DNA from: Hyperoplus lanceolatus
Taxonomy: Eukaryota > Chordata > Actinopteri > Uranoscopiformes > Ammodytidae
Length of the DNA: 64,000 nucleotides
Assembly: GCA_026929865.2 (NCBI GenBank)
Contig: CM049395.1
Span: forward strand, 34,812,501-34,876,500
Reading direction: 5' to 3'
Part shown: piece after piece, positions 49,786 through 52,700 of the stretch
Layout of the letters: the number at the start of each line of letters is the position of its first letter
Position numbering within the stretch: position 1 is the stretch's first letter
The notes under the pieces: generated by a model
Seen by the model: only the letters and a program-made list of their open reading frames with translations
Told to the model about the DNA's origin: nothing
The model's database searches: none
Translations under genes and position numbers: made by a program

Positions 49786-52700
49786 CTACCAGTGTCTGGA
49801 GTCCACCAGCTCCGGCCGCAGACTCACTCTTTTCAGTGTCTCGTATCCGACCACCATGACGATGGCAGTGGGAGTGGATGAGATGATGCGAGCAGACAGT
49901 CCTTTGGTCAGTCCCCAGCCACCCTCCTCTTTGATCAGCTGCCTGAATGTCTCGATGACTGAATTCCTCCCTTCAACCTAAAACACAACAAACCTATATA
50001 ATTACCCGTACTGGGTAACCACAAACCAGTATCACAAAGGTTTCATTAATTATGTTGATTGAATTGGGTTTTTGTTTTCTATACAAAGTGATAACAACAA
50101 TTAAAACTTTCACCAGAATATAACCTTTCCTTTCTTGAAGTGGACTGGAAAAGCTTGCTTGACATGTCAACATATGCAAATTACATAGAGTCCTATGGTG
50201 ACCTTGCAATTGATTAGTAATGTTTATCGGATCAGCTATTAAGAAATATCTACCTAAACATAACAGACTGTGCAACTTAGAGCTCTTTTTATGACGGCTT
50301 TCTCCACATCCTTAAACAAATCACATCTCTTGATGCTTTGAGCACCATATGATAAATGCCACTTGTCTCTACGCACCTGGCAATAGGCCAAATATTAGAA
50401 AATTAAACAAAACAATGTTTCCTTGCTGTAAATCATTTAACATAGCGATTAGACTCTACACCCTTCCTGATAGATGTAGAGTAAAGTGTTTACCTGCACT
50501 CTGGCTCTGACCACATCCATTGGGTTAGTGATGCTTGAGGCAGTAGCAGCGGCCAGCGGTCCGGCCATGCCTTGTAGAAGCAGATGAGGGCAGTCACTGG
50601 GAGCCAGGTTAGAGAGTTGCTCTGTGGAGAATTGAACAAACAATAAATAAGGATAAAACACATAGCAAAGGACTGATTAAAGTCATTCTCATTACAGATC
50701 TACAAATGCATTGGGTAGAATAGATAGATAGATAGATAGATAGATAGATAGATAGATAGATAGATAGATAGATAGATAGATAGATAGATAGATAGATAGA
50801 TAGATAGATAGATAGATAGATAGATAGATAGATAGATAGATAGATAGATAGATAGATAGAGATTAGTGCTTTTCTTTTCTTGAGCTTTACTACACTCAAC
50901 AAAAATATAAACGCAACACTTTTGTGTTTTCTCCCATTTTTCATGAGATGGACTTAAAGATCTAAAATTCATTCCAGATACACAATATTACCATTTCTCT
51001 CAAACATTGTTCACAAATCTGTCTAAATGTGTGATAGTGAGCACTTCTGCTTTGCTGAGATAATCCTTCCCACCTCACAGGTGTGCCACATCAAGATGCT
51101 GATCTGACATCATGATTAGTGCACAGGTGTGCCTTAGACTGTCCACAATAAAAGGCCACCCTGAAATGTGCAGTTTTGTCTCACAGCAAAATGCCACAGA
51201 TGCCACAAGCATTGAGGGAGCGTGCAATTGGCATGCTGACAGCAGGAATGTCAACCAGATCTGTTGCTCGTGCATTGAATGTTCATTTCTCCACCATAAG
51301 CCGTCTCCAAAGGCGTTTCAGAGAATATGGCAGTACATCCAACCGGCCTCACAACCGCAGACCATGTGTAACCACACCAGCCCAGGACCTCCACATCCAG
51401 CAGGTTCACCTCCAAGATCGTCTGAGACCAGCCACTGAGACAGCTGCTGAAACAATTGGTTTGCATAACCAAACAATTTCTGCACAAACTGTCAGAAACC
51501 GTCTCAGGGAAGCTCAACTGCATGCTTGTCGTCCTCATCGGGGTCTTGACCTGACTCCAGCTCATCGCCGTAACAGACTTGAGTGGGCAAATGCTCACAT
51601 TCGATGGCGTCTGGCACGTTGGAGAGGTGTTCTCTTCACGGATGAATCTCGGTTTACATTGTTCAGGGCAGATGGCAGACAGTGTGTGTGGCGTCGGGTG
51701 GGTGAGCGCTTTGCTGATGTCAATGTTGTGGATCGAGTGGCCCATGGTGGTGGTGGGGTTATGGTATGGGCAGGCATCTGTTATGGACGAAGAACACAGG
51801 TGCATTTAATTGATGGCATTTTGAATGCACAGAGATACCGTGATGAGATCCTGAGGCCCATTGTTGTGCCATACATCCATGAACATCACCTCACGTTTCA
51901 GCAAGATAATGCACGGCCCCATGTTGCAAGGATCTGTACACAATTCTTGGAAGCTGAAAATGTCCCAGTTCTTGCATGGCCAGCATACTCACCGGACATG
52001 TCACCCATTGAGCATGTTTGGGATGTGCTTGACCGGCGTATACGACAGCGTGCACCACTTTCCACTAATATCCAGCAACTTCGCACAGCCATTGAAGAGG
52101 AGTGGAACAACATTCCACAGGCCACAATTGACAATCTGATAAACTCTATGCGAAGAAGATGTGTTGCACTGCATGAGGCAAATGGTGGTCACACCAGATA
52201 CTAACTGGTTCTGAGTCCCCAGACCCCCAATAAAGCAAAAAAATGCACATTTCAGAGTGGCCTTTTATTGTGGACAGACTAAGGCACACCTGTGCACTAA
52301 TCATGATGTCAGATCAGCATCTTGATGTGGCACACCTGTGAGGTGGGATGGATTATCTCAGCAAAACAGAAGTGCTCACTATCACACATTTAGACAGATT
52401 TGTGAACAATGTTTGAGAGAAATGGTAATAGTGTGTATCTGGAATGAATTTTAGATCTTTAAGTCCATCTCATGAAAAATGGGAGCAAAAACAAAAGTGC
52501 TGCGTTTATATTTTTGTTGAGTGTACTTACAAAATATGAGTTCCAGTCACATACCAGCATAAAAGTGATAGAAAGGCCACCAGACAGCACTGTTTGGGAT
52601 GTAAGTGAGCAGAGAAGCCACGTATCCCCTGTAGAAGCCCCGCAAACCATCGGCAGCAAAGATCTGACCTATAATGTTCCTGGTTTGACCAAAGACTTTT

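Follow-up and report, generated by a model that had tools for sequence, protein, structure and literature searches.

An intron of Hyperoplus lanceolatus carries a complete Tc1-like DD34E transposon with an uninterrupted transposase frame, which raises the question of whether this copy, or the family to which it belongs, is still moving or is what remains of a past burst. The element spans 1,631 bp (50893-52523) of the 64-kb stretch of DNA that was analyzed (hereafter, the window), exactly as delimited by an earlier sequence-only reading, and BLAST detected no second copy within the window (the match ranked next has an E of 0.025). Counting the TA dinucleotides, its two arms (50891-51177 and 52239-52525) measure 287 bp. 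The inverted repeat proper is 285 bp long, one base shorter than had been claimed, while the claimed identity of about 97% held: the arms align with 9 mismatches and no gaps (96.8% identity), and a BLAST E value of 2.5e-135 excludes chance for their pairing. The TA duplications and matched ends that had been reported were also found, at the positions listed below.

Features of the element and its host intron (positions in the window)
Feature	Position	Strand	Basis
Host intron holding the element, between two Mito_carr exons	50622..52554	-	Splice sites by reading
Left TA target-site duplication	50891..50892	.	TA on both sides in 39/40 copies
Left terminal inverted repeat, 285 bp	50893..51177	+	Arm alignment, BLAST
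Possible outer direct repeat, left arm (element 23-40), not established	50915..50932	+	Match in majority at chance level
Possible inner direct repeat, left arm (element 148-164), not established	51040..51056	+	Little-changed stretch
ORF (ATG at 51191, stop at 52204), 337-residue Tc1-like transposase, DD34E triad and HTH domains	51191..52204	+	ORF reading, Pfam, SB100X match
AATAAA just 3′ of the stop, possible polyadenylation signal	52229..52234	+	Motif match only
Right terminal inverted repeat, 285 bp	52239..52523	-	Arm alignment, BLAST
Right TA target-site duplication	52524..52525	.	Sequence reading

As the sequence-only reading had stated, the transposase is unbroken and carries a DD34E triad (D151, D239, and E274, with 34 residues separating D239 from E274). 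Pfam profiles DDE_3 (1.2e-15) and HTH_Tnp_Tc3_2 (8.6e-13) both matched the protein, and its best relative of solved structure is Sleeping Beauty SB100X (E 2.6e-37, catalytic domain). The HTH_SB profile scored 22.9 bits, below its 43-bit cutoff. A single-sequence fold of the transposase was too poor for use (mean pLDDT 36). A DDE triad with 34-residue spacing, a TA duplication, and inverted repeats flanking a single transposase frame are the features of DD34E/Tc1 elements, and this one is a new but ordinary, young member of that known type. The inverted repeat at 50891-51177 is nearly CpG-free (observed/expected ratio of 0.10 versus 0.51 in the frame).

The element is inserted antisense within an intron of a host gene that we take to be slc25a44, its two flanking minus-strand exons scoring as Mito_carr. 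By reading, the intron would have GT...AG borders on the minus strand and a length of about 1.93 kb, and removing the element would leave approximately 0.3 kb. A pure (ATAG)35 microsatellite occupies 50720-50860 of the same intron, 32 bp before the element, so that the antisense intronic position beside a GATA microsatellite was described correctly by the earlier reading. Elsewhere in the window, other inverted repeats of about 185 to 380 bp and 69 to 77% identity appeared among the BLAST matches listed (5785-6003 and 27061-27267; 29058-29245 and 59486-59674; 60079-60428; 6987-7171 and 60076-60253); they are probably older repeats.

A single copy with an open frame and matching ends is a weak sign of activity, and it is the comparison of copies that decides. 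The species' own assembly (approximately 807 Mb, 527 contigs) was searched, as the sequence-only reading had proposed. The best 40 of 1,051 candidates in a DNA search with the element were all full length or nearly so and at least 98% identical (rounded), and the 22-base tip of the repeat had 2,742 plus 2,726 exact matches in the genome, i.e., 5,468, compared to 0 for the reversed control. Three samples were drawn. The best 40 include the window's own copy, the other 39 being fetched; 20 further copies came from among the 40 listed with one of these, L010, as the query; and 29 pairs of tips no more than 3.5 kb apart were paired by eye among the tip matches listed, all within the initial 10.7 Mb of contig 1. 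The tip pairs comprised 13 full-length copies (1,580 to 1,660 bp), 7 of 840 to 880 bp, and 9 of other lengths. Best-match samples are picked by likeness to one query, a choice that narrows their range and can leave recent or diverged copies unseen; the tip-pair sample is less biased, yet it demands exact tips at both ends. TA was present on both flanks in 39 of the 40 best-matching, 18 of the 20 further, and 28 of the 29 tip-pair copies. No relative was found among viral contigs, GTDB genome contigs, phages, and plasmids, where peptide patterns matched 6 stretches in viral contigs and 26 in GTDB contigs, none of them confirmed. Strings of the element had no match in literature text.

Together, the 40, 20, and 13 full-length copies (73 in total) form a star, each lying 0.3 to 1.7% from the family majority with a mean of about 1%. 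For the 40 best-matching copies, mean pairwise divergence was 1.83% (minimum, 0.80%), and singletons accounted for 362 of the 467 variable columns. Substitutions relative to the majority were Poisson-like both in the 13 less biased copies (mean of 19.8, variance/mean of 1.11) and in all 73 (mean of 16.1, variance/mean of 0.85). Private coding changes in the 40 copies followed neutral expectation, with 184 nonsynonymous (188.1 expected) and 65 synonymous (67.1 expected) changes for a dN/dS of 1.01, and 16 private stops were observed versus 9.8 expected; shared coding changes gave a dN/dS of 1.12. Using the rate of 4.13e-9 per site per year given for ZB in the excerpt of PMC7913693, which is not the species' own, and distances to the majority, the mean age of the 13 less biased copies is approximately 2.4 My without and 2.9 My with CpG sites, and that of the window copy is 1.9 and 2.4 My. 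The star, the Poisson-like counts, and the neutral coding changes fit one short burst, dated very roughly to 2 to 3 million years ago. The earlier description of the window copy as young is therefore supported, as it differs from the family majority by about 1%.

We then considered the open frame itself. It does not single out the window copy as had been suggested, since the best-matching 40 include 24 with an open frame, and 14 of the 20 further copies near L010 are open. Neither best-match set includes a copy whose frame has a gap, which inflates the open share in both; in the less biased sample, only 2 of the 13 full-length copies are open and the other 11 are broken, in line with the earlier remark on fish Tc1 copies. 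In a simulation of neutral decay, 18 to 42% of frames were still open at 1% divergence, depending on the assumed indel rate, and the youth of the window copy suffices to explain its open frame. This copy carries 16 substitutions relative to the majority of the 40 copies, with seven amino acid changes (R59C, R113C, R125H, R165C, F206L, P291S, and T306N). Four of them recur among the other 39 copies (R59C in 9, R113C in 11, R125H in 5, and R165C in 11) and, by reading, appear to fall at CpG sites. R59C also seems to lie inside a stretch that we assigned ourselves as a GRPR-like motif, and the excerpt of PMC7913693 names such a motif as important for activity. The amino acid changes may reduce the activity of the window copy.

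Alongside the full-length copies, the genome contains an 866-bp derivative that lacks element positions ~418 to 1178, and with them all three catalytic residues, while keeping both arms. The deletion breaks at a shared TCCA, and its junction has 542 plus 560 exact matches in the genome (1,102). We sampled 47 junction copies, of which 40 were fetched and 7 belonged to the tip-pair sample (L056, L064, L067, L068, L071, L072, and L076). Among them, 32 are present end to end, and 24 of these 32 have TA on both sides, a share perhaps affected in part by trimmed alignment ends. The derivative copies are 0.77% from their own majority versus 1.11% for the same regions of the 13 autonomous copies (z of 2.98), a comparison that is provisional given that the two samples were drawn by different methods. 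Given this lower divergence, the derivative seems, provisionally, to have been mobilized in trans after the autonomous peak. L109 and L120, derivative insertions whose flanks differ, are each one base from the derivative majority and could represent later movement; according to a Poisson test, their closeness does not need it (P of 0.345). Another derivative pair, L115/L117 (0.35% apart), was rejected as independent insertions, since its near-identical flanks indicate a duplicated locus. Element positions 95-96 and 1536-1537 read AT/AT in 67 of the 73 full-length copies and TG/TG in 28 of the 32 derivatives. Both arms thus appear to change together, with few mixed copies, as if they had been homogenized.

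Target choice was assessed at 99 insertion sites with TA on both sides, leaving out L091 (a duplicate of L088), L080 (omitted inadvertently), and copies with unclean TA ends. The sequence ANNTANNT was found at 61 of the 99 sites compared to 11.1% of the TAs in the window. The position three bases upstream of the TA was A in 83% of the sites, and that three bases downstream was T in 76%.

The arms were also examined for inner and outer direct repeats (IR/DR) like those of SB. In the right arm of the window copy, element positions 23-40 resemble 148-164 in 16 of 18 aligned columns, a match with a P value of 0.009 for a 40-base tip and 0.017 for a 50-base tip that is not significant for a 30-base tip. 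No significant match was found in the left arm of the same copy, and the resemblance does not rise above chance level in the family majority (P of 0.47 to 0.54). The other 72 copies have 144 arms, 125 of which place their best tip match at this same position, the copies being closely related to one another. Across these 72 copies, the two stretches vary less than other arm sequence (25/5,036 versus 326/35,944; P of 0.0024) because the inner stretch alone carries the effect. The inner stretch and its mirror show 9 changes in 2,444 positions, a level that 5 of 268 windows of the arm reach or undercut; the outer stretch does not stand out for conservation, being equaled or undercut by 58 of 267 windows. 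The inner stretch may be a transposase-binding site, and an IR/DR layout as in SB is not established by these alignments. Counting both arms, the window copy carries four changes within the two stretches, the highest number among the 73 copies (the probability that at least one of 73 copies reaches four by chance is 0.036). They are not readable as damage, since two of the four, right-arm changes that are private or nearly so, improved its direct-repeat match, and the match in the majority is at chance level. Damaged direct repeats in this copy were thus rejected as a circular argument, the stretches having been defined from its own right arm, and decay of the left arm alone was rejected because two of the four changed sites are in the right arm.

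The element shares its general architecture with the fish DD34E/Tc1 elements SB and ZB, i.e., a length of about 1.6 kb, a DD34E transposase of about 340 residues, long inverted repeats, and a TA target. In the excerpt of PMC9777934, repeats of 180 to 300 bp are given for 330 of 350 intact elements of the SB and ZB groups. The bias toward ANNTANNT is also found in SB (excerpt of PMC2756404). Unlike SB and ZB, the present element ends in CACT, and its transposase is only distantly similar to that of SB; the weak HTH_SB score speaks against SB membership, although the criterion for the SB and ZB clades is more than 80% CDS identity and our comparison covered the catalytic domain of SB100X. Other relatives were compared by description only, from excerpts of the cited papers. 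The DTSsa families of Atlantic salmon went through short, master-like bursts and retain some open-frame copies (PMC2198921), as does the present family, and DTSsa2 resembles it further by its CACT ends, its size of about 1,600 bp, and a burst at ~1.8 to 0.9%. However, the salmon families with long repeats end in CAGT, and the repeats of the CACT families DTSsa2 and DTSsa7 are about 40 and 20 bp long (PMC2198921), whereas the present element combines CACT with 285-bp repeats. The Group 1 Tc1 elements of teleosts and lampreys are likewise young and numerous, most sea lamprey copies being 97.5 to 98.0% identical to their consensus (PMC3516227); in contrast to the present element, their ally DTSsa1 (PMC3516227) ends in CAGT (PMC2198921).

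Given these data, we consider it very likely that the window copy is a cut-and-paste Tc1-like DD34E element inserted in a single brief burst of the whole family, about 1% divergence ago, and that it has decayed neutrally since. By analogy with the family, the transposase would bind the element ends and cut at both; insertion is at TA, with a preference for ANNTANNT, and the same transposase would have mobilized the 866-bp derivative in trans. The window copy would have landed in its intron during the burst and then decayed. The timing of the insertion could also be sought in the arms, whose 97% identity would date it directly, as in LTRs. Seven of their nine mismatches are indeed departures of the window copy from the majority (four absent from the remaining 39 copies and three each shared with a single one of them), but the remaining two (positions 268 and 281) are left/right differences inherited family-wide, and cut-and-paste transposition carries both arms unchanged. 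Arm mismatch was thus rejected as an insertion clock, and arm identity almost certainly does not date this copy, contrary to the earlier reading. Equally implausible is that the transposase or the intronic insertion was domesticated or selected for a host function. The open frame and the position inside a gene would agree with such a role; against it, coding changes are neutral across the 40 copies (a pooled dN/dS of 1.01 rather than a value for the window copy singly), open frames are spread across many copies, and the insertion is intronic and antisense with its repeats and TA duplication intact.

It is also unlikely, though less so, that the family, perhaps including the window copy, continues to transpose in the species today. 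Open frames persist in all three samples and are a possible supply of transposase, and the two near-majority derivative insertions lie at independent sites. However, the closest independent pair among the 73 full-length copies, L009/L010, is 0.8% apart, coding changes are neutral, and the sample showed no surplus of very young copies. The present copies lie about 1% from their majority, whereas 20 zebrafish copies of ZB share more than 99% identity with each other (excerpt of PMC7913693), and the window copy itself carries R59C in the putative GRPR-like motif. A closer pair, L088/L091 (0.06% apart), was rejected as a recent local hop, since it is explained by near-identical flanks and a 4.27-kb tandem duplication, 99.7% identical, with a whole element in each unit (L105, G000:C13:1223436-1233197). 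The suggestion that the window copy may still move is thereby weakened, given the 0.8% separation of the closest pair and its own seven amino acid changes. Under the preferred reading of a single past burst, we infer that the burst is largely over and that the family is mostly quiet.

If the family were still moving at a low rate, for which we see only a slim chance, it would be an active vertebrate Tc1 system with its own in-genome parasite, the 866-bp derivative. As it stands, H. lanceolatus preserves a clean record, left by nature, of a single Tc1 burst, with thousands of ends, a datable star, and neutral decay, and this record includes a deletion derivative that seemingly expanded later than its parent.
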